This document shows positions 2,217 through 56,243 of a DNA stretch of 64,000 nucleotides, one piece after another; position 1 is the stretch's first letter; each line of letters starts with the position of its first letter. The stretch comes from Leuctra nigra. Lineage: Eukaryota; Arthropoda; Insecta; Plecoptera; Leuctridae. The translations under genes and the position numbers were made by a program. The notes under the pieces were generated by a model. It was not told where the DNA came from. It saw nothing but the letters and a program-made list of their open reading frames with translations, and did not search any database. The stretch covers positions 20,633,246-20,697,245 of the forward strand of contig OW203773.1 of NCBI GenBank assembly GCA_934045905.1. Reading direction: 5' to 3'.

Positions 2217-2325
2217 TGAGTCTGATAAAATTATTAGTTTGCTCCTCTCTTTTATCAATTCCCAGCAATTTTGAGTTATCTGTTGATTTTTATACCAATG
2301 AGGGATAATAAAATTGAAGATTCTT
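2217..2325 (+). repeat. Dispersed repeat, copy 2
   Basis: Second copy of the repeat at 885-1013, ending directly at the 5' breakpoint of the truncated Jockey ORF2. The junction is probably where the LINE cDNA stopped. Confidence 0.5.
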
Positions 2326-2326
2326 C

Positions 2327-7603: not shown

Positions 7604-7892
7604 TCTAGTGGAGCGGTCGCTCCACCCAGCCAAGTCGTACCGTACACTCACAGTCACTCTACATGCCGTAAGCGCCTATATAAACTGAGAAGCAGACCAA
7701 CTACTTTTACTGTTAGCAACAACATAGCATTTTCGGCCAACTGGATCTCAACAATGGAAAATATCACATTGTTGTGATATGTCATAATTTTGAGCTATGG
7801 TCCACCTGACAACATATACATCACGCGACAACAATCAGTCATGCCGTTCACGAACTAGAGGGCCGTGAAAATCATGAAATAACACCGATTTC

Positions 7893-7924
<32 letters not shown>

Positions 7925-17084: not shown

Positions 17085-17192
17085 CTTGGTGTTTAATGAC
17101 GTCCAATCTGAAACCAACGTTAATCTTATATCTAACAAATAAAATATTGTGAATAATATTCTATCAAACTTATGACAAAATATAATCAACAA

Positions 17193-18002
17193 ATCGATGA
17201 ATTGTGATTCATTCTACGTTACCTTTAAAATTAGAGGTGTTTACTTCTATCAGTAGTGGTTTGTAAACTGTGGTATGACCTTCCCTTCAAACTGATATCA
17301 AGTTTTGAACTTTTAATTATTCTCTGCACGTACGCTACATAAAATGTTTTATTTCATCGATAAGTCAATCCGATAACAATTGAATCTGATAATTATTACT
17401 GAGCCGATTTAATTATCATTTATTTAGAATTATATGTTGGTAGATTGCATTTTTCTTAATCATAATAAAATTATCCATTTGCTTTTATTACTTTGGATTT
17501 ATATTTTAATGCTTATAGGAAATTCTTATGAAATTTTATTCTAGTAGGTTTATTTCTAAATATCAATACAAATCATAATGATAAACACACTTATCTCCCC
17601 TGAAATATAAAATTTTCATTCATACAAATAAAAACTAAATTTCATTAAATTAAAACTTGTTAAATTTCTTATTTCTTCTATAATCCTAAGATATTACGTT
17701 TTATGTATTTACTCATTACAAGTATAGATAGTTAAACTTTCAATAATGCAATATTTAATTGCTGTTGAAGGGGTGTCAAGTTATCAACGGTGATCGATTA
17801 TTTGCAGGAATGGAATGTGAAGGTAAAACCTGCAGAATTGCGTGTTTTCAAATCTTGTACAAAATTAAATTTACTAGGTAACTTGTTTATGATATAATCG
17901 TACATTATTGATTGATGATTGATTATTAGGGTTTAACGGCGCGTCAACGACGAGGTTATATTGCGCACATTAATTTTTACTTTAAACTTTGTTGAATTAA
18001 GT
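17193..18002. other. AT-rich upstream region of the secreted-protein gene
   Basis: No ORF or known repeat is convincing. A stretch around 17510-17700 (CTAAATATCAATACAAAT) loosely resembles sequence near 27465-27600 and 51610-51740, pointing to an old dispersed repeat. Any promoter for the gene ending at 17084 should lie here, but I see no decisive TATA or initiator. Confidence 0.3.
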
Positions 18003-29224: not shown

Positions 29225-30475
29225 CAGTCAGATCGATTTGAGGAGGTGGATTGTGAGTTGAAATTACGGTGAATGCAAGCATAGTCATGACAAATGAGTT
29301 TAACTTCCTCTACTGATTTAAATGGAGAATGAATATGCATTACTTTAGTTTTGCTGCTATTAATAGTTAGTCCATTATCATGAGCCCTCCGCAAGACATT
29401 TGTACAATCAGCTTGTAGATACTCATTAGCTACTGAGAAGTGCTAATGGACTGCCACAATTGCAGTATCATCTGCGTACAAAAATATCGAACTTCATCGA
29501 CATATACCTTATTAAAATAGTTTTTTATTGCATCATACAAAACACATGGGTCATTAATATTTTTGAATTCATTCAGATTGATATTCTTCAAATCTTTTTT
29601 TAACTTTTGTTTCATTTAACATTTTAAGGGGCTCCTTTGCAACAGATTTATTATTTTGCGCCAGATGTACATTTTTTATGCCTTCAAGAATAATATAATG
29701 ATCTGATATTTTTGTTTCCACCAAAAATTGCTGAATTTAGTTCACACTGCCTTTCATTTACTCGCACATAAATGTGGTCAATACCGTATTTGAAAACAAA
29801 CCTAATCTTTCTTCTACCCTGGTATCACCATAAATACACCTATTCATACCATAACTTGCCATAATGTTTATGTATCTTTGTACATTTAAAGAGTTACTGT
29901 GCAGATCCAAATTAACATCCCCTAAAAAAATAATCTGTTCTCTATATGATACAACACTTAACAAAACATCAATTTCCTCTAAGAAGTTACACATAAGGTC
30001 ACTATTTGGTGGCCTGTACAAAGCAATTAACTTCGTTCTGCATCCATTTAACATAAATTTACCCATTATACATTCACAACATCTCAAATTACTTATCTCC
30101 AAATCGAAATTAATCCCGTCTTTGACGTACACTATGATTCCTCCCCCTTGTCTCCCTTCCCTTAATAATGAATACATATTAAAACCATCGAGGTGAAAAA
30201 TAAGTTTTCAGCCTCTGCAATGTTTACTTCCCCTAAAACAATAATATCTAACGAGCTAATAAATTCATGCAAGTATATAAACAATGCATCAAAATGTATC
30301 TTTATTGATCTGATATTGAGATGCAAGACATTAAATGAATCAATTGAACAACTCAGTCAACCTGCTATCAACAGAGACAGTATTTATTTGGTTGACAAAA
30401 GGAATGTCAAACAAATAGTCACCTGCCATTGTTTATTATTGACTTTACCAATCATATAACTAATGCACAGAAATG
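29225..30475 (-). pseudogene. Degenerate CR1/Jockey-like LINE ORF2 (endonuclease plus RT remnants)
   Basis: Read downward from about 30470: NVLHLNIRSIKIHFDALF and IIVLGEVNIAEAENLF (endonuclease start), a frameshift near 30190, then GFNMYSLLREGRQGGGIIVY, LIALYRPPNSD and IFLGDVNLDL, ending near 29758. The RT is mostly deleted: a spacer-like piece (29430-29615) joins abruptly to FLYADDTAIVAVH at about 29440-29480, keeping the catalytic YADD but losing motif A. GLTINSSKTKVMHIHSPF follows and the frame ends at the 5.2-kb insertion. Stops, frameshifts and the internal deletion make it dead. Confidence 0.8.
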
Positions 30476-30487
30476 AATGAATGAAAC

Positions 30488-31371
30488 TCACGCATCAACA
30501 GGCTCTGTCACACGCTGATCAACTAACTTGTCCAGATCACTTTCTTTAAATATTTTAATGACTGGAGAGGTTTCATCCTTTCTAACTAATATCTTGCCGA
30601 ACCTGAACCATGTGAACTTGTAACCCTTCCCTGATGCATTAACTTTCGTTTGCCAAAACAGCTTTTTGTAATAAGGCGACAAGTTTTCATTAACATACAC
30701 ATTATTTTGATTTCCATTTTCCCAAATATCGTTATTCGTAATCCTGACTGTGTTCTTTTTCATCAGAAACTCATCCCGTTTCTTACGAGACAGAAATTGC
30801 ACATTGATGTTGCGTGATTTCCCTGGTCTTGCTGGTAAACGATGCACCACTTCAATGTCATTTGATTCCAGAGCTATTCCCATTTTATTGGCCACCACTT
30901 GAACTTGTTGAGGTAATTTTTCACCCGGTAATTCTTGAACATTTCCTAATTTCAAGTTGCAATTTCGCCCATACTGCTCAAGGTGGTTGAGACGCGATTT
31001 TATCATCCCGTTCCTTGACCTTGTCGACAAGCGTTGTTATTGTTTTATTCAAATTATTTATTATTCCATTACTCACGTTCACTTTAGTAAGAAGTTCTTC
31101 ATATTTATCGGCGAGAAATTGCTGACTTTTCTCAAACTCGCGCTTCATCTCAGCAAAATACTTGTCGAGAATGTCTGTTGTTATTTCCGACGATACAGAA
31201 GTTTTCCTACTCTTGCAGGCGGCACACCTCCACGCCACCCTCTTGCTGTCCGTCATAGATTTAAACGATTTCTCACTCAAGGTTGTACACTCAAAATGTG
31301 CCATCACACCCTTTACACTCAAGAACCAAACCGTCTGTAGGCAGATTAACGTTACACTTTGAACAACTCAT
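30488..31371 (-). pseudogene. LINE ORF1 with PHD-like finger and Baculo_FP-like domain, frameshifted
   Basis: The ATG at 31371 opens MSCSKCNVNLPTDGLVLECK, the first half of a PHD-like zinc finger. A one-base shift near 31290 moves on to HFECTTLSEKSF and VAWRCAACKSRKT, then a coiled coil (EKSQQFLADKYEELLTKVN). A second shift near 31000 leads into LNHLEQYGRNCNLKLGNVQE, VVHRLPARPG, NVQFLSRKKRDEFL and NENLSPYYKKLFWQTK, which fits the FP25K-like domain known in ORF1 proteins of insect LINEs. It would bind element RNA. It belongs with the ORF2 remnant just downstream. Two frameshifts make it a pseudogene. Confidence 0.8.
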
Positions 31372-31489
31372 ATTCACAACTATTTGCTCACTCAACGTTG
31401 GAACTTGATGATATCTATATCTAATCAATATCTATATCTAATCTAAGATAATCTTAGATAAGATAATCTTAGATATATCAATATCTAAG

Positions 31490-31826
31490 GCGGCAGATGA
31501 TTTCCTCTAAGAGCTTAGATATTGAGTTGGTTAAGCTTATTGGCCTGTAATTTTCAGGATTGGAGTGGTCTTTGTGTGGTTTCGGGAACAGGAGGACGTG
31601 TGCATGACGCCAGGCGAGAGAGACATAGCCGCTCCTGCAGCTTGCAGTGTACATAAGGGCTAAGACTTGCACAAGTCTTCCTGGTGCCGCTTTGAGAGCT
31701 CGGTTGGTAACTGCATTGGGTCCCGGGGCTGTGTTGCGGAGCTTGGTTAATGCATGTAGAACATCGGCGGTGGATATGTCTTTCGTGAGATCCGAATTAG
31801 GGTCCGTGTTTCCATCCGGGTAGTTT
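31490..31826 (-). pseudogene. Fragment of a second LINE reverse transcriptase
   Basis: Reads DISTADVLHALTKLRNTAPG, PNAVTNRALKAAPG, then WRHAHVLLFPKPHKDHSNPE and NYRPISLTNSISKLLEEI, the linker and first RT motifs of a Jockey/RTE-like ORF2. The frame is open within the fragment. Its upstream end is cut at 31826 by the foldback insertion and its downstream end stops before the palindrome motif. Confidence 0.75.
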
Positions 31827-32568
31827 CTAGATTATGGAATAAAATGTCCCTAAAATTACAAAAACTTTTGAAAATAACGACAGAATAGACTGAAAATTGG
31901 CAAAAATACCTTTTATGTTGGTACCAATGACCATGCGAAGTTTTAAGTTGATCGGTCAATCGGTTCTAGTTTAAATTTCAAAATTAACCGGAAAAATGGT
32001 AAATGGTTTCATATATGAACCAATAGGAGGATTTGGATGAAACTTTTTATGATTGGGTACCATGTTGGTTGCAATGACTTTGCTAAATTTCAAATTGATC
32101 GGACAAACCTATGACACTTTCTCCGTTTTTTTTGTTTGTTTGTATTTTTTTGTGTGCACTGCCCAGGTCAAACCGCTCAACCAATCGATCTGAAATTTTG
32201 CACACGTACTAACATAATCTATGCAGTCTCTGGGATCGTTTCTGAACGGAATCCTCCGTTTGGTTAAAATTTTAGAAAAATTATCTTTCGATTGGTTGGT
32301 TCGATCAATTTGAAATTAAGCAAAGTCATTGCAACCAACATTGTACCCAATCATACAAAGGTTTAGCCAAATCCTCCCATTGGTTCAAATTAAAACAATT
32401 TTTCCGCTGATTTTTTTATTTTAAACTAGAACCGATTGACCAATCAACTTAAAACATCGCATGGTTATTGGTACCAACGTTTAAGGTATTTTTGCCAATT
32501 TTCAGTCTAATCTGTCGTTATTTTCAAAAGTTTTCTTATTTTAGTGACATTTGTTTCCATAATCTTGA
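31827..32568. mobile_element. Head-to-head foldback built from the Helitron-like family
   Basis: The left part (31827-32110) is the reverse complement of internal Helitron-like sequence that reappears in direct orientation at 32280-32568. The outer edges pair (CTAGATTATGGAA against TTCCATAATCTTG), as does the family phrase GATCGGTCAATCGGTTCTAG. It interrupts the LINE fragment at 31826. Together with 32570-34745 it may be one rearranged Helitron-like copy. Confidence 0.6.
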
Positions 32569-36232: not shown

Positions 36233-36556
36233 CGAGCGAAGAGGCCGTGACTTTGTGAAGGAGTTGACGCGATTTTAATTTCTCCAACCTAATTATAGAT
36301 TTAATGAGAATTATTGTGTTATATAATAAGTTTATGATCTTAATAGAAAGAGGGGAGAGAGAAGAGTCCAAACTTGAAAAATCGCAAGTATTGAACATTG
36401 TATTGCAGAGAAATCGACATAAGTTTGTGTAGTTTGAAAGCCATTGCCAATTTTCAAAAACAACTGCTAGTTTAACCTGTCAAATTGCCGCCACATCAAT
36501 TTAATTGATGTCAAAAACCACTGAAGTAAATGTAATACTTTGAAAGCAAATTGCAA

Positions 36557-39418
36557 ATGTTGAACATTCATGAAATGAGACTGAATGATTTGAGAATAAA
36601 GCTAGAGAAAAGAGGTATTATGGATATTAAGGGAAGAAAAGCTGTTCTGGTTGCAAAGTTGACAGAAGAATTGGAAAAGTCTAAAGATGCATCAGATGAG
36701 GTGTGTCAAGTACTGATAACGAAACAAAACATTACAGCAACCAATATGAAGAGTAAAAAGATTGAAATCGGCAAGAAGCCCATGCGTAGCGGATCATGCA
36801 GACCGAAAACTAAGCCCGTGGAACCAGGAACTTGCGGCAACCCCGTGTGCAAGATTGGCATCATAGATGGGGACGAGACAGTCACATGTGCACTATACTG
36901 TGGACTACAATGGCACGTAGCGTGTGCAGACATCACACGTAAGATCTTTAAAGAAGTGAATAAAAGTGGATTTAAGTGGTGGTGTAAGGCATGTGACGGC
37001 ATAAATAAGCAGGGAACTGCACTTGGGGCTGGCTATGTTGCCAAAGAGTTGAAGCAGCAGAGAGAAAACGCAAATGAGGTGTCTAAACAAGTGGTTGAGC
37101 TTAGAACTGTAATACAACAACTCTGCCGTGACCAATTAGTTCTTGTAGAGACAGTAAATGAAGTTAGGAAGGAAATACTTAAATTTCATGTTGGGTGCTT
37201 GAATGGAATTGAAGGGGCCACAAAGAATACCAGCTTTCCTGATATCACAGAGATGCAAGACGCGGAGAAGAAAGATATTGATGCTACTTCTGAGGAATTT
37301 AACGTCCATTCCTCAATTGAGTTAATTGATTGCCAAATCAGTGCTGAGTCTGTTGATGCGATAACGGAAAATGTAGGAAGTCGGTGTGTCAAAGAGCATA
37401 TTACAATAATTGAACAAATCAATGGTGACATGTTTGAAGCTCCGGATGGAGTTGCATTTGCTTTGTGTATTTCGAAAGATGTTATGATGACAAGAGGGAT
37501 AGCTGCAGAGTTCCAGCATAGATTCGGTGGTCGAGATGAAGTGCTCAAACAGTCAAAGCAAGTAGGGGAAGTAGCAGTTACTCATTCCCTGAGCAAAGTG
37601 GATGGCAAAGGGAGAACAATTTTATATGTTGTCTCAAAAGAAAGCTCCAAAGGCCAAACCAACATTGCCGACTTTGTTAAAAGTATCCATGCCCTCAAAA
37701 TGTATTGTCTTGATCTAGGAATTCGGAGTATTGCAGTGCCAAGGCTTGTGGCCAGGCAGGAGAAGATATCGTATGAAGTTGTACAAGATGTTCTCTCGAG
37801 CGTATTTAACAACACGGGTATATCTGTAAAACAGTATTTACTCTCAACACATTCCAGAGTGACAGAGAGAAGCCTAGGTCACTACAAACGTAGATCAAGT
37901 GGTGTTCAAGTTAAGCACGATGATACGAGAGTGCGGCAAATACAGCCTTCACTTGATCAGAAACAACAGCAACAACGACGACTTCAAAATACGAGTCAAC
38001 ATCCAATTGTGCCAAAGAAGCAACAAAATCAAACACTAAATAACTTGAAGAAGCATCACGAGCAAGTGCCGACTCATCAACATCATCATAATCAGCAACA
38101 TCAAACTCTTCAACAAAATCAGACAACTCCACATCAAGACCGTCAAGCGCCAAATCATCAACTTCATAATCCTATTCAAAATCAACATCTTCAGCAATGT
38201 CAGCAAACACCGATAGATCAGATTAACCGTCAAGCGCCAAATCATCAACTTCATAATCCTATTCAAAATCAACATCTTCAGCAATGTCAGCAAACACCGA
38301 TAGATCAGATTAACCGTCAAGCGCAAAATCATCAACTTCATATACCTCTTCAACATCAACATCTTCAGCAATATCAGCATGCTCCACTAGATCAGAGTAA
38401 CTGTCAAGCGCAAAATCATCAACTTCATAATCCTCCTCAACATCAACATCTTCAGCAATTTCAGCAAACTCCTCTAGATCAGATTAACCGTCAAGCACCA
38501 AATCAACAACTTCATAATCCTCTTCAACATCAACACCTTCAGCAATATCAGCAAACACCAATAGATCAGATTAACCGTCAAGCGCCAAATCATCAACTTC
38601 ATAATCCTATTCAAAATCAACGTCTTCAGCAATGTCAGCAAACACCGATAGATCAGATTAACCGTCAAGCGCAAAATCATCAACTTCATATACCTCTTCA
38701 ACATCAACATCTTCAGCAATATCAGCATGCTCCACTAGATCAGAGTAACTGTCAAGCGCAAAATCATCAACTTCATAATCCTCCTCAACATCAACATCTT
38801 CAGCAATTTCAGCAAACTCCTCTAGATCAGATTAACCGTCAAGCACCAAATCAACAACTTCATAATCCTCTTCAACATCAACACCTTCAGCAATATCAGC
38901 AAACACCAATAGATCAGATTAACCGTCAAGCGCAAAATCATCAACTTCATAATCCTCTTCAACATCAACATCTTCAGCAATATCAGCATAATCTACAAAA
39001 CCAGTTCAACCGTCCAGCGCCAAATCATCAACTTCATAATCCTCTTCAACATCAAGATCTTCAGCAATATCAGCAAACACTGATTGATCAGATTAACCGT
39101 CAAGCGCCAAATCATCAACTTCATAATCCTCTTCATCATCAACATCTTCAGCAATATCAGCAAACACCAATAGATCAGATTAACTGTCCAGCGCAAAATC
39201 ATCAACTTCATAATCCTCTTCAACATCAACATCTTCAGCAATATCAGCATACTCCACTAGATCAGATTAACCATCCAGCGCCAAATCAACAACTTCATCC
39301 TCTGCAACATCAACATCTTCAGCGAAATCAGCAAATCCCATTGCTGAGTAATTATCAACAACATCGATACCAACAGTCGTGCTGTGGATCGGAAAACTGG
39401 AAAGGGACTTCGTTGTAA
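36557..39418 (+). CDS. LINE ORF1: SAP-like, PHD finger, coiled coil, macro domain, Gln/His repeats
   Basis: 953 codons from the ATG at 36557. Order: a SAP-like helix-turn-helix (LNDLRIKLEKRGIMDIKGRK, about residues 9-40); a PHD-type C4HC3 finger (CGNPVCKIG, CALYCGLQWHVAC, WWCKACDG; about 91-149); a coiled coil (about 155-205); a region matching a macro domain (about 280-430: GDMF, ISKDVMMTRGIAAEF, QHRFGG, GEVAV, YVVSKE, VPRL, YEVVQDVLSSVF); then Gln/His-rich repeats (about 528-930). The macro segment most resembles the TARG1/OARD1 group, which binds or removes ADP-ribose; the catalytic Asp position appears to be Glu and the Gly-rich loop is altered. PHD fingers are known in CR1-type ORF1, but I know of no macro domain in one. 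ORF1 should package LINE RNA; chromatin or ADP-ribose reading is inferred. It ends at TAA overlapping the ORF2 ATG. Confidence 0.85.
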   Translation: MLNIHEMRLNDLRIKLEKRGIMDIKGRKAVLVAKLTEELEKSKDASDEVCQVLITKQNITATNMKSKKIEIGKKPMRSGSCRPKTKPVEPGTCGNPVCKIGIIDGDETVTCALYCGLQWHVACADITRKIFKEVNKSGFKWWCKACDGINKQGTALGAGYVAKELKQQRENANEVSKQVVELRTVIQQLCRDQLVLVETVNEVRKEILKFHVGCLNGIEGATKNTSFPDITEMQDAEKKDIDATSEEFNVHSSIELIDCQISAESVDAITENVGSRCVKEHITIIEQINGDMFEAPDGVAFALCISKDVMMTRGIAAEFQHRFGGRDEVLKQSKQVGEVAVTHSLSKVDGKGRTILYVVSKESSKGQTNIADFVKSIHALKMYCLDLGIRSIAVPRLVARQEKISYEVVQDVLSSVFNNTGISVKQYLLSTHSRVTERSLGHYKRRSSGVQVKHDDTRVRQIQPSLDQKQQQQRRLQNTSQHPIVPKKQQNQTLNNLKKHHEQVPTHQHHHNQQHQTLQQNQTTPHQDRQAPNHQLHNPIQNQHLQQCQQTPIDQINRQAPNHQLHNPIQNQHLQQCQQTPIDQINRQAQNHQLHIPLQHQHLQQYQHAPLDQSNCQAQNHQLHNPPQHQHLQQFQQTPLDQINRQAPNQQLHNPLQHQHLQQYQQTPIDQINRQAPNHQLHNPIQNQRLQQCQQTPIDQINRQAQNHQLHIPLQHQHLQQYQHAPLDQSNCQAQNHQLHNPPQHQHLQQFQQTPLDQINRQAPNQQLHNPLQHQHLQQYQQTPIDQINRQAQNHQLHNPLQHQHLQQYQHNLQNQFNRPAPNHQLHNPLQHQDLQQYQQTLIDQINRQAPNHQLHNPLHHQHLQQYQQTPIDQINCPAQNHQLHNPLQHQHLQQYQHTPLDQINHPAPNQQLHPLQHQHLQRNQQIPLLSNYQQHRYQQSCCGSENWKGTSL
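38141..39335 (+). repeat. Coding minisatellite: ~14 units of 87 bp
   Basis: In frame within ORF1, each unit encodes 29 residues with core NHQLHNP, HQHLQQYQQ and TPIDQIN. Units 2-5 and 6-9 are near copies of each other, giving a four-unit (348-bp) higher-order duplication. The last unit is shortened. Strong frame retention implies selection or youth. Reverse-strand open frames here are artefacts of the repeat. Confidence 0.9.
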
Positions 39419-39420
39419 TG
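39416..39420 (+). promoter_or_regulatory. TAATG stop/start overlap between ORF1 and ORF2
   Basis: The ORF1 stop TAA (39416-39418) shares its last A with the ORF2 ATG (39418-39420). The same UAAUG arrangement drives translational coupling in the silkworm LINE SART1. It decides the ORF2 start, although the ORF2 frame is open further upstream to 39379 without an ATG. Confidence 0.75.
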
Positions 39421-42396
39421 CAACGAAGTCCAAATAATGTATTGGATATGTTAGCTTTTAGTAATATATTTGCAAATAGTGTTATGGAAAAGTGTGAAGT
39501 AGAAATTCCAGTCATTCCAATTGAACTAAAGGAAACTATTGCTATTCATGTGAACTTGCAGACATCAGTTCGACTGTTATTAGTAAATGCCCGGAGCTTA
39601 CTAAGTAAAATGACTGAATTTACTACTTTAGTTGAAACGTATGATCCAGATGTTGCAGTCGTAACGGAAACCTGGCTCTGTGATGATATTTTTACCAGTG
39701 AAATCCGATTAAATGGATACGTAATACATAGAAGGGACCGCAACAGACATGGAGGTGGAGTACTTATAGCATCAAAAACTAAGTACAACGGAATTCTGAA
39801 GTGGACAAGTCATGTTCAGGAGATGATTTGTGTTAGGATTTCTGTTGGCCACAGCAACAATATTGATGTCATTGGTTGCTACAGAAGTGGTGACGGCGGC
39901 CTGCAGTTTCTCCAAGACTTAGAAGAAGTTGTCCAAGACCACGGCAGAGATGACATGGTGATTATCGCAGGAGTTTTGAATTTCCCTGGGGTTATTTGGA
40001 GTCAAGGTGTTGGAGGTAAGCACAACAAGCAGGAGTTGATCCATGAAATCATGAACCATGGTTTTGAAATGCCGGTGAAATGCGGTACAAGGTCCATGGA
40101 TGCAAATCGTTCTAACTTGTTGGATGTAGTTTTGATAAAGCCAGTCAACCGAATTGTAAGATGTACAGTTGCTGAAGGCATTAGTGACCATTGCATTGTT
40201 GTAACAGACATCATGCTGGGAATCACACATGATAGCAGTGGTATTGCATCGAAGGGCAAGGTTGTCTGGGATTTCAAAAGGGCAGACAAAAATGCTTTTC
40301 GAAATGAACTTGAAATTAAGTTTATTGAATGGAATATAAATAATATGAATGTAGAAGAGGCATGGATGAAATTTGGATACATCGTTGATAATGCCCTACT
40401 GAAATTTGTTCCTAAAGGCCTAGTCAAGAAGGAAGGCGATCCTCCATATTACAATAAAAAAATCCATTCCCTTAAGAGAAAGGTGAGAAGACTACATAAC
40501 AAGTCTAAATGGGACAATAGTGAAGATAGGAAGTTGTTAGAATCTAGAAGAGCTTTAAATAGGGCTAAGTTGGAGGCGAAGGAAAAGTACATGATGGCAT
40601 TGTTTAAGAAAGGCGATGAAGGAGGAGGTTGGAAAAACTTGTATAAGCATGTTCGATCTCAGAAAGGAAGTTGGGTGACTATTCCAACTTTAGTTGATTC
40701 CCAAGGCCACTCACACAATACAAATAGGGAAAAGGCTGAGCTTTTAAATGCATGCTATATGCAAGTATTTAATACCAACCTAGTGAATGCTCTACCTTTG
40801 GGAAATGAAAGAGGACTATCACCTCTCATATGTGATGAAGTAATTGTTTACAAAATTATTAGAAAGTTGAAGAATGGTAAAGCTCCAGGAAAAGATGGTT
40901 TCACACACAGATTGCTCAAATTTGGTGGTCTAGCAATAGCTATGTTTCTTAATAAAATATTTAATACAATTTTGGAAGAGAAAGTGATGCCAATTGATTG
41001 GAAAAAAGCGACAGTCATTCCAATATTCAAAGGAGGAGACAATAGTAATCCAAGCAGCTACAGACCGATAAGCTTGACTTCAGCAATATCCAAAATATTT
41101 GAAAGAGTATTAGGGGATTACCTAAGAGATACAATTGAGGACTTAGGATGGTTCCTTGAGGAACAGCATGGGTTTAGGCGTGGCCTTTCTTGCGAAACTC
41201 AGCTCACTGGTTTAGTGCAAGATCTTGTTGAGATAGTTGATAAGGGTGAAGAAGTTGACGCTGTATTCCTTGACCTCCAAAAAGCGTTTGACAAAGTCCC
41301 TCATGGAGCACTTATTCGCAAACTGAACTCCATCATATCGGACAAAGTGGTGGTGAGTGTTATCAAGGACTTTCTCACTGATCGAGTACAAAGAGTTCGA
41401 GTTGGAGACGATTGGTCAGAAGAAACCAAAGGAACATCAGGCGTTCCTCAGGGTAGCGTCTTGGGCCCTCTACTGTTCTTAGTGTACATTAATGATGTTA
41501 CGCAAAATGTGCAATCTAAAAGTCGGTTGTTCGCTGACGATTACGTTGTTTATCGGAACATTGTGGATGCTAATGACGTCCTCACTTTTCAAGAAGATTT
41601 GGATCAAATTGCGAAGTGGATGGAAGAGAATGAAATGTCTTTGAACATTAATAAATGCAAAGTTATGCATTTTTCGAGGAAAAAGAAGAAACGAGATACT
41701 CTATATAAGATTGGAAGTGAAACTGTTAATGAAACTACGGATTACAAATACCTAGGTGTTTGGTTGAATAAAAATCTAGGATGGTCCAAGCAAGAAACCA
41801 GTGCTACGACCAAGGCCATGACCAGTCTAAATTTCGTAATGAGATCATTAAAGGGAGCAAATACAGCAATAAAGAATCAGGCGTATAAGACCATTGTAAG
41901 ACCCATACTTGATTATGGGGGAACTGTTTGGGATGTACATTGTAAACAAGAAGTAGAGTTAATAGAAAAGGTTCAGAGAGTTGCAGCCAGAAGAGTAACT
42001 AATAAAGTCAGGGAATGGGAAACGAGAAGAAATGAACAGGGGCGGGTTGTCAAGGAGAGGGTTAGTGTGAAGAAATTGCTGGATGATTTAAATTGGGAAT
42101 CAATGGAAGAAAGAAGGAAAACATCAAGGCTTTGTAACATGTGGCGGATTTGGAATGGTATAGGAGGGTGGAAAGTGTTTCAGGAGAAGTTGGAGAGGAA
42201 TATAAGAGATGGGCGAGACTGTCATCGATGGGTTTTGAAATCCTGCTCATTCAAGACTGATCTGTTGAAGCATGGTTTTCTTAATAAAACTATACAAGAC
42301 TGGAACAAATTGCCAGCCAGCATTATGACCATCGAAAATATTGCTGAGTGTCAAGTGAAGAATTTTAGGAACCTTCTTAATTTTGTTGGACACTAA
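39418..42396 (+). CDS. LINE ORF2: APE-type endonuclease and reverse transcriptase
   Basis: 992 codons. The endonuclease (about residues 50-280) shows VNARSLLSK, VVTETWL, HGGGVLI, then IIAGVLNFPGVIW and ISDHCIVV. The usual GDFN reads GVLN, so the catalytic Asp is Val (codon GTT at 39973-39975, one base from GAT), and cleavage is probably impaired. RT motifs follow: YRPISLTSAISKIFERV, QHGFRRG, VFLDLQKAFDKVPH (motif A), SGVPQGSVLGPLLFLVYIND, SRLFADDYVVYR (motif C FADD), LNINKCKVMHF and YLGVWLNKNLGW. The C-terminal thumb region is complete and there is no RNase H. RT style fits the CR1/L2/Rex group. The single Asp-to-Val change is the only obvious lesion. Confidence 0.9.
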   Translation: MQRSPNNVLDMLAFSNIFANSVMEKCEVEIPVIPIELKETIAIHVNLQTSVRLLLVNARSLLSKMTEFTTLVETYDPDVAVVTETWLCDDIFTSEIRLNGYVIHRRDRNRHGGGVLIASKTKYNGILKWTSHVQEMICVRISVGHSNNIDVIGCYRSGDGGLQFLQDLEEVVQDHGRDDMVIIAGVLNFPGVIWSQGVGGKHNKQELIHEIMNHGFEMPVKCGTRSMDANRSNLLDVVLIKPVNRIVRCTVAEGISDHCIVVTDIMLGITHDSSGIASKGKVVWDFKRADKNAFRNELEIKFIEWNINNMNVEEAWMKFGYIVDNALLKFVPKGLVKKEGDPPYYNKKIHSLKRKVRRLHNKSKWDNSEDRKLLESRRALNRAKLEAKEKYMMALFKKGDEGGGWKNLYKHVRSQKGSWVTIPTLVDSQGHSHNTNREKAELLNACYMQVFNTNLVNALPLGNERGLSPLICDEVIVYKIIRKLKNGKAPGKDGFTHRLLKFGGLAIAMFLNKIFNTILEEKVMPIDWKKATVIPIFKGGDNSNPSSYRPISLTSAISKIFERVLGDYLRDTIEDLGWFLEEQHGFRRGLSCETQLTGLVQDLVEIVDKGEEVDAVFLDLQKAFDKVPHGALIRKLNSIISDKVVVSVIKDFLTDRVQRVRVGDDWSEETKGTSGVPQGSVLGPLLFLVYINDVTQNVQSKSRLFADDYVVYRNIVDANDVLTFQEDLDQIAKWMEENEMSLNINKCKVMHFSRKKKKRDTLYKIGSETVNETTDYKYLGVWLNKNLGWSKQETSATTKAMTSLNFVMRSLKGANTAIKNQAYKTIVRPILDYGGTVWDVHCKQEVELIEKVQRVAARRVTNKVREWETRRNEQGRVVKERVSVKKLLDDLNWESMEERRKTSRLCNMWRIWNGIGGWKVFQEKLERNIRDGRDCHRWVLKSCSFKTDLLKHGFLNKTIQDWNKLPASIMTIENIAECQVKNFRNLLNFVGH

Positions 42397-42570
42397 TTAC
42401 CTAATTAATTTTATTTTTCTTATATACCTATTATTTTCATTATTGTTCCCTTCTTCTTATTCTAGTAATAGTATTAATTGAAATTATATTGTATTTGTAG
42501 AAATTCCTTGCCACCTTGGTAATTCCATTACCAATTTGTAAGATGTTAATAAAATGAATGAATGAATGAA

Positions 42571-42870
42571 CCCCTCCCCCAAACAAAATCTAATTTTAAA
42601 ACTTGAAAATATAAAAATATATACACGTTTTCTACGCACGCAACCATGACCAATTTGCCAGGGAGATTCTATGAGAACAAACACACTTTATGTGGACGTA
42701 CTCACCCTAACATCCAAACCACCCCTAATTGAGGAAAACTAACGTTAAAAATGAACACGTTACCTACGCGCGTGAGCATGACCGCTTATTATGCAGACAA
42801 TCTACGGGAAGCAGCCGACATTATAGGGTAGTACTCATCCCCTTCCCCAAACCACCCCTACGTGGTAAAC
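42571..42870 (+). repeat. Minisatellite units right of the LINE
   Basis: Two or more ~130-bp units with ACACGTTTTCTACGC, ATTCTACGGGAAG or related strings and TACTC at unit ends, the same family as 36108-36232. The LINE sits at a unit junction. Confidence 0.7.
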
Positions 42871-42954: not shown

Positions 42955-43305
42955 AATTTTTGCGCCGGGTCCCAGAATTTGTGCTGACATTGGGGGGGGG
43001 GGGGGAGGGGAGGGGGGGGGGGGGGGAGTTAACCCCCCCCCCCTATCTTTAGGGGTTGATATCTCGACAACTAGCAGAGCACAAATTCTACAAATTTGCA
43101 GGGTTGTAGCACAAATTGGACACAAATTTTTGCGCATGGTCCCAAAATTTGGGCTAAGGTGGGGGGGGGGGGGGGGCACTTTCAAGGGTTGATATCTCGG
43201 AAACTAGCAGAGCACAAATTATAAAAATTTACAGGGTTGGAGCACAAATTGGGCAGACATTTTTGCGCATGGTCCCAGAATTTGTGCTGGGTTGGGGGGG
43301 TCAAC
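42955..43305 (+). repeat. Tandem repeat with poly-G tracts
   Basis: Three ~140-170-bp units share TTTTTGCGC, GGTCCCA, AATTTG, GGGTTGATATCTCG and ACTAGCAGAGCACAAATT, each with a G-run. The first run, 42992-43026, is only briefly interrupted and is followed by a C-run near 43034, so hairpin or quadruplex folding is likely. Confidence 0.75.
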
Positions 43306-43579
43306 TTCACGCACCTTATTTACTTATTTAGAGTTGGTCTGTGAATACGACCCAAAACTGTTTCACCCACTTCAATATCTATTGTAAACAAAATAAATTG
43401 ATTACACACTAAATAAAAAGTAACCCATATAAAATATAATTATCGATGAAATTAATTTCGCATTATTTCATAACAATCTATTTTAAAATTTATTATGTGT
43501 TCAAGACTGACGAAACTCTGAAGTAGACCAAGAGATCACAGTTGTGAATATTAGTCACGCGTGGCTTATATTGCGTGAA

Positions 43580-44095
43580 GAGTAGTGCCATTCGAAAGCA
43601 CTAATTGAGCACTAATTTTTCACCTACTTTGAAAGCTTTCCGATTAGTGGGGCCTTCGGCACGCCCCAAGATAAAGTACAAATATCTCCGAAAATATGAA
43701 AGCACTAATTGTGGGAGTGGTGCCATTCGAAAGCACTAATTGAGCACTAATTTTTCACCTACTTTGAAAGCTTTCCGATTAGTGGGGCCTGCGGCACGCC
43801 CCAAGCCTAAGTACAAATATCTCCGAAAATATGAAAGCACTAATTGTGGGAGTAGTGCCATTTGAAAGCACTAATTGAGCACTAATTACTGGTATCCATC
43901 CGGAAATTAGTGCTTTCATGGGCCGTGCTACGTGAAGTTGGCAGCACCCACAGACAAATGCTCGTATCTCCCAAAATAATTGAGCACTAATTCTCGGTAT
44001 GGACTTAAGTAGAAGCACTAATTATGCACTAATTCCTGTTGTCATTCCCGCAATTAGTGCTCTCATGGGCCGTGCCAACTTCACGGACCTCAGCA
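43580..44095 (+). repeat. Tandem repeat dense in GCACTAATT
   Basis: About 2.5 units of ~145 bp with GTGCCATTCGAAAGCACTAA, CTTTGAAAGCTTTCCGATTA and GCACGCCCCAAG. GCACTAATT or its complement AATTAGTGC occurs well over ten times, often doubled, and continues after the unit structure decays. Confidence 0.8.
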
Positions 44096-51196: not shown

Positions 51197-51515
51197 CTAA
51201 TTATGTTTTAATACGTGTTTCACATGGTCAAAATAATATGTAAAGTCTATAATATCTAGCATGAAGTCTTCCTGAAGGGATCTGAACCGCTGTTCATTCT
51301 TGCGGTACCGCAGAGCTGAGGGCTTGACCGCGTGACCCCGGGTCAAGTCGGCCATTCTCATGTGTGCGTCCTGCTGAAGTTCCTTCAGAATCCCGACATA
51401 TTGGTAGATGGATTGAGGTCCTCGCCCATTCAAAATTCTTCCCAACTTGCTGTGCCAGCCCTCCACATGGTTGTTTGTACGCGGACCAACTGTCTCGAAA
51501 TGATTCCAAATACTC
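51197..51515 (-). CDS. MULE gene exon 6 (catalytic Glu, stop)
   Basis: Acceptor TCTTGGCAG. SIWNHFETVGPRTNNHVEGW holds the third acidic residue (VEGWH); ends HVLKHN and stop at 51197. Confidence 0.82.
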
Positions 51516-54500
51516 CTGCCAAGATGAAAGAGAAACATTATTCCATGTAAACTAACATAATTATGATAAGAAGGTTTTTCCAATAATATGAAATAAGTTT
51601 TTAAGTGTACATTTTTAAATATCAATCAATACAAACAATAATGAGAAGCACAGTTATTACCCCAAAAAATTAAAAGTAAATGTCAATGGACATTTTGGCT
51701 GGAAAACCAGCATGTTTCAAGAAAAATAATTGTGTATGATGTAATTTCTAGTTTTTTAACAATGGGTTTCCATTGTGAGTCTTTTGTTGCTAGGCAATAG
51801 AGCAACATGTGATGCCATTGTTAATTTTTCTGTATTTAATCTATTCATTAATCTATTCATTTAATCTATTCATCTATATTATTCCATGTAACTATATTAT
51901 TGTTACCTACGTGTTCCAACAAACCCTAATCCTATGGTATTTTTTACAACGATTGTACTCTTTGTAGACTTTGTACTACTACTTTGTATGATTGCAAATC
52001 GATTCAATCTTGTAATTTATTGGAATAAAAACTGAAACTGAAACAACTTTAAATTCTGCAAGGTAATTGGGACGATAGGTGTTTTTGACAGTTTTCAGAC
52101 ACATCTGTAGAGAACTTGAAGAGTTATTGACATTCTACGAGGATATTTTGTAAAAATTAAATAAAGGATATTCAAAGACAAAATTATCACTGCGACTTGG
52201 ACGTATTTCTTCTTCTCAATTATCAACGAATACGATCTAGTATAGAAAGCAAAATTTTCTATACAATTAAAAATTCACGCACGATATCGCCGGAATACGA
52301 AGGCTCGCTCATCAACGCGTTACACAGAGCGTTTTTCTAGTTATCTTAATTTTGTACGTACCGGTCGAACAACGCATAGTTCTGGTCCACCCACGTCTCC
52401 ACCAAGTAATCGTTGAACGACTCCCGCTGGTCGACAGTAATCTCTGGAGGCATCGGAGCGTCGTTTTCCAGGATCTGGAAACCATCATCCACGCAGCCAA
52501 TGGGTAGGAGGGGAAGAGCCATTGCCCTTTGAATCCACCTGCGTGTTGTGTCTGTGTTTCGATACTGGACAACAAGTCCCAATTCCTGCACCTTTTTGCA
52601 AGAAGGAGAAAATTAATTGTTAGTGTTTATCACAACTATTCACATTTATTGTAGCAAACACTGGTTTCGATAATTAGTACCCATAATAATCCAATTCTTT
52701 CTGCCAAAAGCAAGGGCGTATCCTGCAGTCCCCGTAGCCATACCCCCCCCCCCCCCCCCACCCGCACCTAATCAGACTTGAATCCGAAAATCCGAGCATT
52801 CTGATAAATAAAACATGACCTTATAGTACCTACTTAAATTACATCAGTTAGAATTGGAAAATTGTTCTAGAATAGGCCTGGGACCATTGATTCATTATCG
52901 GGCTATAATTAATTCAATTATTATCCAAATTCCAATAGTTTTTGAAAACTAACCTTTCTCCAGAGCGCCTGGTTGAAATGAAACAAGCACCCTTTTCTTG
53001 CTGCCGTTGGAAACTCGGTGCGCACGGCACCAAACACGGCCATCTCGAAATCGCTGAAAAATTCCTTTGGGGCCAAGTCAACTCCATTCGCCACACACAG
53101 ATCTTTGGTGTGGCGGAACACCCGCTCGTAGGTGGCTTGCGTTTTATTCGGCAGTAACGCATACACAAGTGGGAAAAGCTGAAAAATAGCTGCATTATAA
53201 TATTTGCATTGTGGGTACCGGCGCAAAAGATGCCCAAGTATCCTAATATCGCTACCTATTCTAAAACTATAATATTACTGAATTTTTCTTCTCGATAATC
53301 CTAAGTTTGGAGTTTTATAAACATTACCTCGCATTCATAAAACTGCACACAAACTTTATACTTTCTATTGATTCAATTTAATAAATATAAAGTATAAAGT
53401 TTGTGTACAGTTCTATGAATGCGAGGTAATGTTTATAATATTACTGTGTATAGTTCACAGAATTTTAAAAATGATTCAGGAAACAGAGAAACAGTGGTTT
53501 TATTTGCGTAAAGTAAAGACATATACAAATATTCACCTCTCCCTTGAAGTCACCATGCAGTGTGTAGAGCTGCTTAAACTGGAGTGGCATGGAGGTAAAC
53601 GTACCATCCATATACACCGTCTTTGCATCTCCCAATTTTTGTAAATTCCCAGTTGTAGAAAAAATCTAGAACATTAATGACAAACTTGGCGTTAGTAATA
53701 TTGATTATAGGTACTTATAACTAGGAACACGCTCTACATAATGCATTCTTGAGCGAGCTTCAAATATTTATTTAGATTTGTATAATATTTCAAAATTAAT
53801 ACAAAATTCTAACAGCAGCCATTTTTGATAAAAGTTAACATTTTATACCGCAGATAGATCACACCGTTGATTGGTATTTATCAAGGTAGGTATTTATCAT
53901 GAAAAAAGATGATAAATAAATATACTTATATATTTTAAACAGAAATTCCCAACATATTTATTATGCCACCGTATTTGTTCGTATGTAAAATCTACGTTCC
54001 GTCTAGCTATCTTCAGGATAAATAATACTAAAATAACATTCAAAAGCACTAGCAGTAGATCAGATATTACAATTCTATAAACAATTACTTACCAATACTG
54101 TTTCATCCCCACCCTCATTTACTTGGAGGAATTTCTCTCCAACAAGAGTTTCTCCCCACTTCCCATCAAGGATAATTTCCGAAATGTGATTCGGAATATG
54201 TGGGAGCGAACTTTTCCGGGCGTTGTAAAGTTGGGTTTTTATACTGTTAAAATCCGGTCTTGGGGGTGGTGGAAGAGGTGCTACGGATAAGGCAGTTTTA
54301 TTTGTCTCGTCTCTGCAATGGGATAAACAAATCATTAGTCAGAGGAGTATTGTTGTTTCATTACGTAAATGTCATACATTCGATAAATAACAATCCATTT
54401 TGTCTTAAACGTATACACTTAAGATAAGAGGTCCCTCACAGTAATTTTTCACAATTTATTTGAGATAAATGCAGGTGTTACTTGGTCTTAGATATCCCTC

Positions 54501-55832
54501 GCAATAATGGAGATATTTTAATTCTTGTTGAAGGAGACGTTCCAAGAAAACTAAATGTATGGTATATAAGTATTGATATGTCGTATATTGATATTTTTCC
54601 AGAGTGGTGGAAAGTTGTTGCAATAAAAATCAAAAGTAATAGTACCTAATAGGGTTTATTTAATAAGTGAAAAATTAAAATAATTTGTAGACCTCTTATT
54701 TTGATTTAAATCATAATTATAAAATTTGCATAATTAGTACTAATTTTGACCTCTCGTGACCTCGGTTTTGGCGGAAACCTACAACGATAATTTTGTACTG
54801 CATCTAGATGCTCCGAGCTTTCATTACGTTTAGATAACGTTTAGATTTTAATCGGACGATTGATAAAATATCGATTAAATGCTCATTGACACATTGTTCC
54901 GGAATGTGGATTTCGGCGGATTTTAAATATGTGTAGAGGGAATTTTTCTGAAGAGAATGACACCAAAATAACAAATATTACAATTTGTTTTGGGTTTGAA
55001 CGTTTTTAGGTTATATTTGACTGGACTATACTAATTCAAGTCGGTGACCCGTGTAAGATTCACAAATCAATTAAACAAATATTATTGTATTTCAAGAAAT
55101 TGCTATTATTTTAAATTATTTCATGCAGTACGAAATAAGTACCTACTTTATTTGATTTGTATCAGTTTTTAATGAAAACTGGCGAAATTTGGCTATTATA
55201 CTGATTATCTCTTTATTTCATACCGTGACACAACTTTGAAAACGGTTACAACTACCTATCAGAAAAATACGACTTTGAAATAAAAGAAAAAATAAAAATT
55301 TCAATAATTATGATTACTATTTCTGCACAAAATTATGGACAATTTCTATATACCTCTTCAAGATATCTCTTAAATTAATCCCGTGCCACATGTTTTTGTA
55401 TTTGCATGTGTTATTGTTGAGGAAAATAATTGTAAGAATTTCTCTACAACATCGACTTTCCGTGCGGAAGTAACCACTTCCAATTATTATTATTAAATCT
55501 ATTATCACAATAATAATAAATTTAACTCACCTGTAGACACTTGTCACTGTTGGAAACATGTCTGCGGCCACCCTCTCCTTTACAGCTTCGATTAGTTGAA
55601 GTTGGGGGATATCTTCCTCTCGTGACTGATGCAAATGATAATTTGCATCAGTTTTTGTGAGGCCAATAATAATATCTCCCTGAACTTTTATTGTTGGCCC
55701 CACACACTTCGCGTTGTCGCACCGGTAATAAGCAATTCCTTTATGAACACGATTTATTTTATACAAAAAATTACCAAAAATCAATTTCTGACCTCCTCTC
55801 TTAGTTTTAACAAACTCGGCACGTGTATTCAT
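51197..55832 (-). CDS. FLYWCH zinc-finger MULE (Phantom-like) transposase gene, six exons, intact frame
   Basis: Exons (minus): 55832-55531, 54312-54093, 53665-53537, 53178-52954, 52591-52362, 51515-51197. All five introns are GT-AG with phases 2,0,0,0,2, giving 1425 nt and 474 residues without a stop. Domains: FLYWCH finger (about 10-72; RGGQK, FGNFLYKINR, YYRC..AKC, YHLH); linker with a Pro-rich patch; MULE DDE core with VYMDGTF (Asp194), FSDFEMAVFG (Asp260), KGCLFHFNQALWRKVQELGL, and TNNHVEGWH (Glu387). The FLYWCH plus MULE combination is typical of Phantom elements of animals. Terminal inverted repeats were not found, so it may be an active transposase source or a domesticated gene. A Helitron-like tail and a hairpin MITE sit in its introns. 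Confidence 0.82.
52070..52340 (+). mobile_element. 5'-truncated Helitron-like copy in intron 5 of the MULE gene
   Basis: Ends GCTCGCTCATCAACGCG then GAGCGTTTTTCTAG before T, only 21 bases from the exon 5 donor. Upstream sequence resembles the family interior from about 52070. It lies antisense to the gene. Confidence 0.62.
52362..52591 (-). CDS. MULE gene exon 5
   Basis: Acceptor TTGCAAAAAG chosen over a second AG six bases on, because it keeps WRK-VQELGL continuous as in the family. Ends CG|GTACGT. Includes ALPLLPIGCVDDGFQIL. Confidence 0.75.
52742..52760 (+). repeat. Poly-C tract in intron 4 of the MULE gene
   Basis: About 18 C with one late interruption. Confidence 0.8.
52954..53178 (-). 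CDS. MULE gene exon 4 (second catalytic Asp)
   Basis: Acceptor TTTTTCAG, donor AAG|GTTAGT. LFPLVYALLPNKTQATYERV, then FFSDFEMAVFGAV with the second Asp, and GCLFHFNQALWRK. Confidence 0.82.
53315..53438. mobile_element. 124-bp hairpin MITE in intron 3 of the MULE gene
   Basis: TTATAAACATTACCTCGCAT / TCATAAAACTG at the left pairs with its reverse complement at the right for about 48 bp with two or so mismatches, leaving a ~28-base loop. The transcript would fold into a long hairpin inside the intron. Confidence 0.65.
53537..53665 (-). CDS. MULE gene exon 3 (first catalytic Asp)
   Basis: Acceptor TGTTCTAG, donor GAG|GTGAAT. 43 codons: LGDAKTVYMDGTF holds the first Asp of the DDE triad; SMPLQFKQLYTLHG follows. 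Confidence 0.8.
54093..54312 (-). CDS. MULE gene exon 2 (linker)
   Basis: Acceptor CCATTGCAG, donor TTG|GTAAGT. Reads DETNKTALSVAPLPPPPRPD then SLPHIPNHISEIILDGKWGE, the spacer between finger and catalytic core. Confidence 0.78.
55531..55832 (-). CDS. MULE gene exon 1 (FLYWCH finger)
   Basis: ATG at 55832, donor CTACAG|GTGAG at the end. Carries the whole FLYWCH finger: Cys pair in YRCDNAKC and His pair in YHLH; the usual Trp of the name motif is Tyr here (YYRC). Confidence 0.8.
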
Positions 55833-56243
55833 CTTGGATACTAGTTCACAAGTGAATAATGTTGATTTACGGAAATGAATATTTGGGAATTTTGCTCCTT
55901 GTTTGGACTTAGGTCAACCCCTACAAGCGTGTTTTGGGAAATTCCCATACTTATTAGTAGTCTCGGTTTGGGGAAGATTCAAGATCTTATACCGAATTTC
56001 CTTCATGACAAGGATGACACGCGATACCCGGTTTATTGGGTATTTTAGTAAAATGTCAAATATCCCACCTTGATTGTGATAGCTTACTACGGATGGAAAT
56101 AATATCAAAACTTGAAGCCAATAAAATTTGAACCAAATCTGAAATAGCTTATTTATTTACATAGAAATTAGTCACTATTGCTCTAATATGTATTACAAGT
56201 TTTATAAATAAACTAAAAAATGAAGTGATTACCCCCCTAAGAA
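55833..56243. other. Region upstream of the MULE gene
   Basis: Presumed promoter of the minus-strand gene. No TATA box or terminal inverted repeat could be assigned. AT-rich. Confidence 0.3.

Follow-up and report, generated by a model that had tools for sequence, protein, structure and literature searches.

Transposition of LINEs requires both ORF1 and ORF2, although what ORF1 encodes is the more poorly understood, as stated in a survey of CR1/L2-type elements (Metcalfe and Casane 2014, PMC4120745). This survey, which covers 448 elements, names PHD, RRM, CCHC, CC, esterase and zf/lz modules, describes a Pygo-like PHD finger in ORF1 and an EN-RT ORF2, and places esterase-type ORF1s in two vertebrate groups only; its main text contains the words 'macro' and 'sap' 0 times each. 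Enzyme modules common to LTR elements and other retroelements have been described in bdelloid rotifers, whose LTR elements share GDSL esterase or DEDDy ORFs with other retroelement types, in a text that mentions no macro domain ('macro', 0 occurrences; PMC5408684). Fish epsilon-like endogenous retroviruses bear ORFs for a macro-domain protein or a CNPase (PMC4977317, reporting Basta 2009) and are thus retroelements with a macro-domain protein; however, these are LTR retroviruses in which the macro domain lies in an extra ORF rather than in a LINE ORF1. The macro fold is also found in selfish elements of another kind, the RNA viruses of animals (alphaviruses and coronaviruses). Among cellular proteins, the closest system is human TARG1 (OARD1, C6orf130), a stand-alone ALC1-like macrodomain hydrolase; according to a review, no other ALC1-like macrodomain of animals is hydrolytically active (PMC7050489).

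The window, that is, the whole stretch of 64,000 nucleotides of Leuctra nigra that was analysed, contains a LINE that shares the Pygo-like PHD finger and the EN-RT ORF2 of the surveyed elements. Inside its ORF1, however, lies a macro domain for which TARG1 is the best match in both sequence and fold, with an altered pocket in the window copy. We found no macro domain in a LINE ORF1 in the open-licence literature searched, which does report macro-bearing fish endogenous retroviruses (PMC4977317). The features of the element are as follows.

36233..42570, forward strand: whole LINE, ~6.3 kb, 5' end inferred
36557..39418, forward strand: ORF1 (SAP-like, PHD, macro, Q-rich tail), open frame with its first ATG at 36557
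36569..36673, forward strand: SAP-like motif (Pfam SAP 18.9 bits, E 0.0011)
36833..36994, forward strand: PHD finger, C4HC3 (alignment; AF2 and Foldseek)
37400..37843, forward strand: macro domain of the TARG1/OARD1 (ALC1-like) class (phmmer, AF2, Foldseek)
37637..37639, forward strand: Lys codon aligned with the catalytic K84 of TARG1 (alignments, codon checked)
37754..37756, forward strand: Arg codon at the position of TARG1 pocket residue G123 (alignments, codon checked)
37760..37762, forward strand: Glu codon at the position of TARG1 D125 (alignments, codon checked)
38139..39335, forward strand: tandem repeat within the coding sequence, 13.8 copies of 87 bp, the Gln/His-rich ORF1 tail (TRF score 1830)
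39416..39420, forward strand: TAATG, the ORF1 stop overlapping the ORF2 ATG (sequence)
39418..42396, forward strand: ORF2, with AP-type endonuclease (about 39598-40200) and reverse transcriptase (about 41050-41763) (Pfam)
42554..42570, forward strand: 3' tail (ATGA)4 A (sequence; common to copy L009)

The anatomy of the macro-bearing ORF1s and LINEs is close to certain. In the window, a single open frame (36536-39418) forms an ORF1 of 955 amino acids, the last 491 of which comprise 30% Q and 13% H; an EN-RT ORF2 then follows (Exo_endo_phos_2, 1.4e-7; RVT_1, E 4.9e-33), and the TAATG overlap between the two frames recurs in L009-L011. The AP endonuclease and reverse transcriptase in ORF2, together with dispersed copies that have a common 3' end and a short repeat tail, identify the element as a LINE. 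One further copy, L009, is ~97% identical over 36535 to 42570 and terminates at the same (ATGA)n tail in a different flank; because the similarity begins only at 36535, this copy backs the 3' end of the window element only. The 5' end was placed where the similarity of the 5' flank to a neighbouring repeat (42787-42836) ends, at 36232, and no target-site duplication was recognised by eye. Judging from the PHD-bearing ORF1 and the tail, the element is putatively CR1/L2-like.

The first-pass annotation had placed a macro domain of the TARG1/OARD1 group at 37397-37855 in this ORF1, and the profile and structure comparisons that it proposed gave positive results. Human TARG1 was matched at E 4.9e-21 (phmmer, PDB sequences) by query residues 37-180, corresponding to 37409-37840, with the previously noted landmarks in alignment; apart from TARG1, the PDB sequences at E 1 or better comprised only a DarG (0.11), also ALC1-like. 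The real domain scored 78.4 bits, compared to at most 5.4 bits for composition-shuffled versions (1000 made, 834 scored). For the AlphaFold2 model (pLDDT 92.6), the top Foldseek fold was TARG1 (E 1.4e-15; 4j5s_C, TM 0.81/0.91), which occupied all of ranks 1-8, whereas alphavirus macro domains were more distant, appearing from rank 29 onward with 12-16% identity against 35% for TARG1. Chance similarity and a different fold are ruled out by the phmmer, shuffling and Foldseek results. The Pfam Macro model scored weakly on the window copy (13.4-15.4 bits versus a cut-off of 22) and gave no match at E 1 in the full 955-residue ORF1; its cut-off was passed by 10 of the 21 macro-bearing frames scanned. 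Closer in sequence to TARG1 than to other macro classes, and possessing both the macro fold and Lys84, this part of ORF1 belongs to the TARG1-class (ALC1-like) macro domains.

The same genome contains many such domains. All 150 scored matches (348 candidates) were TARG1-like at E <= 1.6e-15, with 148 in frames of at least 300 amino acids and 141 without an internal stop, and the Pfam Macro model gave 76 matches, all above the cut-off, with 150 of 222 candidates scored. In a set of 28 clusters, hand-picked from the match lists and not a random sample, the domain lay upstream of a LINE endonuclease or EN-RT in 20 and within Ty3-like frames in 5, the other 3 being assigned to neither class. Three candidate host macro exons (L049-L051) showed no TARG1-like match. 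A domesticated host gene or a one-off fusion is ruled out by the multi-copy families, and the TARG1-class macro domain is a resident ORF1 module across diverse EN-RT LINEs of this genome.

The neighbouring modules support the earlier description in part. The PHD finger stands: the 8 metal-binding residues of the C4HC3 pattern are invariant in all 9 aligned ORF1s, and Pygo PHD fingers are the best folds for the model (AF2 and Foldseek), with a modest E of 3.9e-3, although the Pfam PHD score in the window (15.6 bits) is under the cut-off of 24. In this fold search, 3zpv and 2vpb, top matches of the published LINE survey, recur (PMC4120745). The SAP-like motif falls below the Pfam cut-off in the window (18.9 versus 23.9 bits) and exceeds it in the relatives L023 and L037. 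Further LINE ORF1s with PHD and macro domains, for which a search of insect genomes had been suggested, were found in the genome of the window itself. The ORF1s of this genome's LINEs mix SAP, PHD, macro, SGNH-esterase and Q-rich modules, the esterase being present in several families here as well as in elements described in PMC4120745.

The pocket of the window copy departs from that of TARG1: K84 is kept, and G121, C122, G123 and D125 are replaced by V, A, R and E. The Asp to Glu change and the altered Gly loop of the first-pass annotation are therefore real for this copy (alignment, codons checked), which lacks both Asp125, the second dyad residue, and the pocket Gly123. Because DarG, a member of the ALC1-like class, is also without the second dyad residue (PMC7050489), the change at position 125 bears on activity and not on class. 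In human TARG1, G123E abolishes both ADP-ribose binding and catalysis (PMC5928194), so that, given the G123R of the window copy, binding is not a safe default either; for this divergent copy, the residues make neither hydrolysis nor binding assured. As a general rule, the earlier expectation that binding is more likely than hydrolysis is not supported. Across the 28 clusters, G43 is retained in 27, K84 in 25, G123 in 24 and D125 in 21, and all four are retained in 20; judging from these residues, the typical retroelement macro module looks like a competent hydrolase. Conversely, K84 or D125 is missing in 8 of the 28 (window/L009, L010, L013, L018, L029, L033, L043 and L045), suggesting that catalysis is dispensable in some families.

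The LINE ORF1 macro domain shows the conservation pattern of a constrained protein. Between the window copy and L010, dN/dS in the macro domain is 0.20, and dN is 0.176 in the macro domain compared to 0.403 in the 137 upstream codons compared. The L026/L031 pair is reversed, the macro domain being less conserved (dN 0.332 versus 0.142 upstream). Of the 14 pairs compared, 6 were informative, some with dS of 1.4 to 2.8; in 4 others dS was saturated in the macro domain, and the remaining 4 showed no synonymous change. The RT and macro trees have in common the split of L023, L025 and L026 from the other seven families (support 91/90 and 84/89), L020 and L026 being only partial in the RT tree. In one tree, all 28 retroelement macro domains fall on one side of a branch with support 92/95, whereas once 24 further proteins are included, host genes are interspersed among them and support for most deep branches is weak; a single clade for the five LTR macro domains was not rejected (p 0.44).

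Protein sequences and IMG/VR were searched as well. With residues 275-440 of the window ORF1 as the query, none of 259 protein database candidates matched at E 0.001. Twelve ORF1 pieces gave 14 matches among the 7996 candidates sharing most words; these read as TARG1-like proteins, of which P0012 also carries a CCHC knuckle and P0013 a bZIP domain, and no LINE ORF1 was seen among the 14. The L026 macro domain, compared with proteins of roughly 312-994 amino acids, gave 24 matches from 278 candidates, most of which look like host TARG1-type genes; P0030, P0036, P0037 and P0038 stand out as retroelement-like or fused, with RT-type Pfam models only in P0037. One scan of IMG/VR yielded 0 confirmed cases among 38 pattern matches.

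The module may serve in target choice, in protection or in countering host ADP-ribosylation, as the first-pass annotation proposed; most likely, it would edit or read the ADP-ribosylation made by the host, either at the RNP or at the integration nick. We give roughly an even chance to the explanation that, as a whole, accounts best for the data, namely a resident TARG1-class module that strips ADP-ribose. Under this model, ORF1 protein coating the element RNA would carry the macro domain to the site of reverse transcription and integration; there, and on the RNP, host PARPs would put ADP-ribose on proteins and on nucleic-acid ends at the nick, and in most sampled families the domain would act as a hydrolase removing it, such that both the RNP and the nicked target remain fit for use. 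In the window branch, with the fold kept and the pocket altered, the product would probably be a weakened or altered enzyme, or a binder of ADP-ribose or RNA. At L1 integration sites, PARP1 and PARP2 are active, and L1 retrotransposition falls when they are lost (Miyoshi 2019, as reported in PMC8535693); for TARG1, cleavage is reported both of ADP-ribose esters and phosphoesters at nucleic-acid ends (PMC7050489) and, on DNA, of ADP-ribose linked to thymidine (PMC8501950). Because, by the former account, PARP activity aids human L1 retrotransposition (PMC8535693), erasure of ADP-ribose could also harm the element. More tentatively, a TARG1-type hydrolase might be a standard RNP or pol part in two unrelated classes of one genome, LINEs and Ty3-like elements, erasing the host's ADP-ribose marks from element RNA or in the course of target-primed reverse transcription, and representing a transposon counterpart of viral macrodomains that was exchanged or captured more than once.

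It is rather unlikely that the module is a reader instead of an eraser, binding poly- or mono-ADP-ribose and, alongside the PHD as histone reader and the SAP as DNA binder, guiding the RNP to open chromatin or PARP-activated nicks. Such a role would agree with the loss of the usual catalytic loop in the window branch, where the fold is still under constraint, with the chromatin targeting suggested by the PHD and SAP-like neighbours, and with reports that some ALC1-like macrodomains are readers (PMC7050489) and that TARG1 itself changes its location in response to PAR (PMC5928194). However, a pure reader would not need the full catalytic set found in 20 of the 28 clusters, and G123R in the window copy argues against tight ADP-ribose binding.

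We likewise see only a minor probability that the domain is a tool of counter-defence that, like RNA-virus macrodomains, strips ADP-ribose placed by antiviral or anti-transposon PARPs on element RNA, the RNP or restriction factors. Macro domains occur in retroelements of two unrelated classes within one genome, as expected of an arms-race tool. The PARP family includes ZAP (PARP13). Human retrotransposition is reported to be restricted by ZAP (PMC4441479), a coronavirus macrodomain reverses PARP-made marks (PMC8332738), and recognition of RNA derived from transposons is speculated, in a review, to be aided by RNA ADP-ribosylation (PMC7050489). However, a limited literature search turned up nothing that directly shows a defence against LINEs based on ADP-ribosylation, and the proposal overlaps ADP-ribose stripping at integration, from which it differs in target alone. 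That the macro fold is now only an RNA- or protein-binding part of the ORF1 protein, with no ADP-ribose role, is improbable: RNA binding by TARG1 is reported to be independent of the ADP-ribose pocket (PMC5928194) and the 8 clusters missing K84 or D125 fit this view, but the 20 divergent clusters retaining all four pocket and catalytic residues do not.

If many families have a conserved ADP-ribose domain that is apparently catalytic, retrotransposition would be tied directly to PARP signalling, and these elements may hold many more active ALC1-like hydrolases than TARG1 alone. Annotators should be aware that gene models labelled 'OARD1-like' may in some cases be ORF1s of transposons. The ADP-ribose signal that cellular TARG1 removes is used in DNA repair and antiviral defence, and the elements may meddle with this signal while copying themselves.

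The macro domain in ORF1 of the window LINE is, on both sequence comparison and predicted fold, a real one. In a phmmer search of 37301-37960 against PDB sequences, five distinct human TARG1/C6orf130 sequences matched at about 5e-21 and bacterial DarG at 0.11, with no other PDB sequence at E 1 or better. The domain scored 78.4 bits, against at most 5.4 for the shuffled segment (1000 made, 834 scored). The AlphaFold2 model, built on an alignment of 35 sequences, has a mean pLDDT of 92.6, and Foldseek placed TARG1 entries at ranks 1-8, followed by DarG. Sequence match and predicted structure thus bear out the first-pass annotation, which had proposed a TARG1-group macro domain in this ORF1. The window copy falls under the cut-off of the generic Pfam Macro model, so that a plain Pfam scan would overlook it.

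The window, positions 20633246-20697245 of a contig in a 536-Mb genome, contains the element with the following parts:

36536-39418 (+), ORF1 open frame, first ATG at 36557
38139-39335 (+), Gln/His-rich tail of ORF1, a coding tandem repeat (87-bp unit, 13.8 copies)
39416-39420 (+), TAATG, the ATG of ORF2 overlapping the ORF1 stop
42554-42570 (+), (ATGA)4 tail, the 3' end

By Pfam, the ORF2 product comprises an endonuclease and a reverse transcriptase (RT). A second copy on the same contig (L009; L numbers denote other stretches of this genome), with about 97% DNA identity, ends at the same tail in a different flank; it resembles the window element from 36535 onwards only, and has an ORF1 frame broken upstream of the macro domain. 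We infer a 5' end of the window element at about 36233 because the likeness of the flank to a neighbouring repeat ends at 36232; by eye, no target-site duplication was recognised. Repeat-rich tails judged by eye to be unrelated to that of the window occupy the equivalent place in L018/L019 and L022. Elsewhere, the window holds:

2318-4705 (+), a further LINE-type frame with endonuclease and RT (RVT_1, 6.4e-41)
7890-8248, (TTC)n, about 120 copies, 98% matches, several frames open on both strands
13194-17213 (-), a 1339-aa open frame with no Pfam match above cut-off
30488-31367 (-), 29758-30207 and 31478-31831 (-), ORF1 remnants, Baculo_FP domain (1.9e-17), with weak adjoining endonuclease and RT matches, both below cut-off; no Pfam Macro match in the Baculo_FP-associated frames at 29758-31831 (-)
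51197-55913 (-), fragmentary MULE transposase (52921-53274) and FLYWCH zinc-finger (55527-55913) sequences
60099-60670 and 43053-43887, arrays of tandem units, 118 bp and 133 to 135 bp long

The PHD finger annotated beside the macro domain also appears sound: its eight ligands are invariant across nine ORF1s, and its model is nearest to Pygo PHD fingers, at a modest E of 3.9e-3 (Foldseek). These structures, 3zpv and 2vpb, also ranked among the top matches when Metcalfe and Casane (PMC4120745) surveyed PHDs of LINEs. Outside the PHD finger, model confidence for the N-terminal part of the window ORF1 is low. The proposed SAP-like module stands as a likeness, its score being below threshold in the window and above it in L023 and L037. 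An SGNH (GDSL) esterase-like match lies 3' of the macro domain in L013, L016, L020, L026, L036, L040, L042 and L048, passing the Pfam cut-off in three of these (L020, L040, L048).

The domain is widespread in this genome. With the window macro as query, 150 of 348 candidates were scored and all 150 passed, at E 1.6e-15 or better; as read from the table, 148 of these matches are embedded in open frames 300 aa long or longer, while nine contain a stop. Human TARG1 yielded 384 candidates, the best of the 150 scored showing 53% identity (5.2e-43) in a 474-aa frame, and the Pfam Macro model 222, with 76 matches among the 150 scored, every one marked over cut-off. We took 44 stretches by place to span different groups, a non-random choice, and 41 of them carry a TARG1-like macro; none was found in L049-L051, taken as candidate host exons. 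Excluding the stop-broken L024, 40 rows formed 28 clusters at 80% identity, named here by their representatives. A LINE endonuclease or endonuclease-RT follows the macro domain in 20 of the 28 (window/L009, L010, L013, L016, L018, L020, L022, L023, L025, L026, L031, L032, L033, L035, L036, L037, L038, L040, L041, L042), support being faintest in L033 and L036 (Pfam below cut-off, E 1.1e-5 to 3.1e-5; tblastn 2.7e-7 and 4.3e-4). Five clusters are Ty3-like: by Pfam, L030 has a retroviral protease 5' of the macro and RNase H 3' of it, and L046 a protease-like match 5' of it, whereas L028, L043 and L045 were so called by eye from protease motifs, plus RT/integrase in L028. In the Ty3-like elements L028, L030 and L043-L047, the TARG1-like macro lies behind the aspartic protease in pol. 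The remaining three clusters (L029, L048, L052) have PHD or GDSL modules and no assigned element type. Among 21 macro-bearing frames scanned, ten passed the Pfam Macro cut-off; L010 and L020 had no Macro match whatever.

Among 24 outside protein matches to the macro (P numbers), four suggest that macro-bearing retroelements are probably not limited to one species, these cases being known from proteins alone. P0038, from the thrips Frankliniella fusca, combines the macro with an SGNH/OSK domain (the latter by Pfam). Two metagenomic proteins look like ORF1: P0030 has a GDSL-like domain, below cut-off, and P0036 has, by eye, a Cys-rich N-terminus and a coiled coil, with no PHD model above the Pfam cut-off. 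The pol-like metagenomic P0037 matches RT, RNase H and integrase models, but its macro lies close to the C-terminus, unlike the post-protease macro of the Ty3-like elements here. In the wider tree, these four proteins do not group with the window's LINEs. A further protein of this set, P0031 (594 aa), has precomputed XPG-type nuclease models (PF00867, PF00752) and a C-terminal TARG1-like macro. A separate protein search gave a bZIP domain fused to a partial TARG1-like macro (P0013, a Callosobruchus maculatus gene model) and a tandem pair of TARG1-like macros, of which the second has Asn at 125 (P0001, Biomphalaria pfeifferi).

The macro domain evolves under constraint. Between the window and L010, dN is 0.176 and dS 0.889 (ratio 0.20), compared with 0.403 and 1.10 (0.37) in the 137 codons just upstream; in the remaining five informative pairs, the macro ratio is 0.09 to 0.19. 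Of 14 pairs compared, macro dS was saturated in four and synonymous change was zero in four. The trend is opposite in L026/L031, where the macro is faster (dN 0.332 vs 0.142 upstream), and L043/L045 show similar values (macro 0.126, upstream 0.134). For ten LINE families, trees were built from RT (with L024 added, and L020 and L026 partial) and from the macro domain; L023, L025 and L026 stand apart in both, with modest support (91/90, 84/89), a common split that fits inheritance of the module along with the element. The two trees disagree over L013, whose partner is L016 in the RT tree and L019 in the macro tree. The module may have been captured once or several times: in one macro tree all 28 clusters fall to the same side of a branch (92/95), but in a tree with more proteins they do not.

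The first-pass annotation had favoured binding over hydrolysis, with the catalytic Asp apparently replaced by Glu and the Gly loop altered. The substitutions are present: in human TARG1 numbering (chain 4j5r plus 6), the window branch retains G43, I44 and K84 but reads VARQE at 121-125, against GCGLD in TARG1. K84 and residue 125, printed as Glu125 in PMC7050489 and Asp in the PDB sequence, form the TARG1 catalytic dyad, of which DarG retains only the lysine (PMC7050489). The functional reading is too simple, because all four key residues are intact in 20 of the 28 clusters (K84 in 25, D125 in 21, G123 in 24, G43 in 27, counting L041 with a one-residue loop shift) and, in human TARG1, G43E, I44E and G123E each abolish both ADP-ribose binding and activity (PMC5928194). 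RNA binding persists in G43E and G123E (PMC5928194). Most sampled families thus look, from their residues, like competent hydrolases; the window branch is one of the exceptions, where even ADP-ribose binding is only putative.

Beyond the observed class, fold, ORF1 position, breadth, residue conservation and constraint, we infer that ORF1p would bring its macro domain onto the RNP and to the site of integration. The most economical reading is that the domain may erase ADP-ribose marks, whether these sit on the RNP, at the nick or on the RNA of the element. This reading is preferred because human L1 integration sites engage PARP1 and PARP2, retrotransposition falling when these are lost (PMC8535693), and because TARG1 strips ADP-ribose from proteins and nucleic-acid phosphate ends (PMC7050489) and from thymidine (PMC8501950). 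Its rivals are that the domain reads marks for targeting, that it serves counter-defence proper, or that it is purely a scaffold.

For the ORF1 of a LINE, a macro domain appears unprecedented: no report was recognised in the open-licence literature searched, and the word macro is absent from the main text of a survey of 448 Jockey-superfamily elements (PMC4120745). One candidate prior report co-mentioning the topic terms has MACROD2 as its only macro mention. Among retroelements at large there is a precedent, since fish epsilon-like endogenous retroviruses are reported to carry macro proteins (PMC4977317). Taken together, the ORF1 module is confirmed and well supported, and undescribed within the reach of our literature searches. 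Its parts, an ordinary LINE and a TARG1-type macro domain, are known; what is new is that they are combined, and that this reaches across two classes of retroelement.
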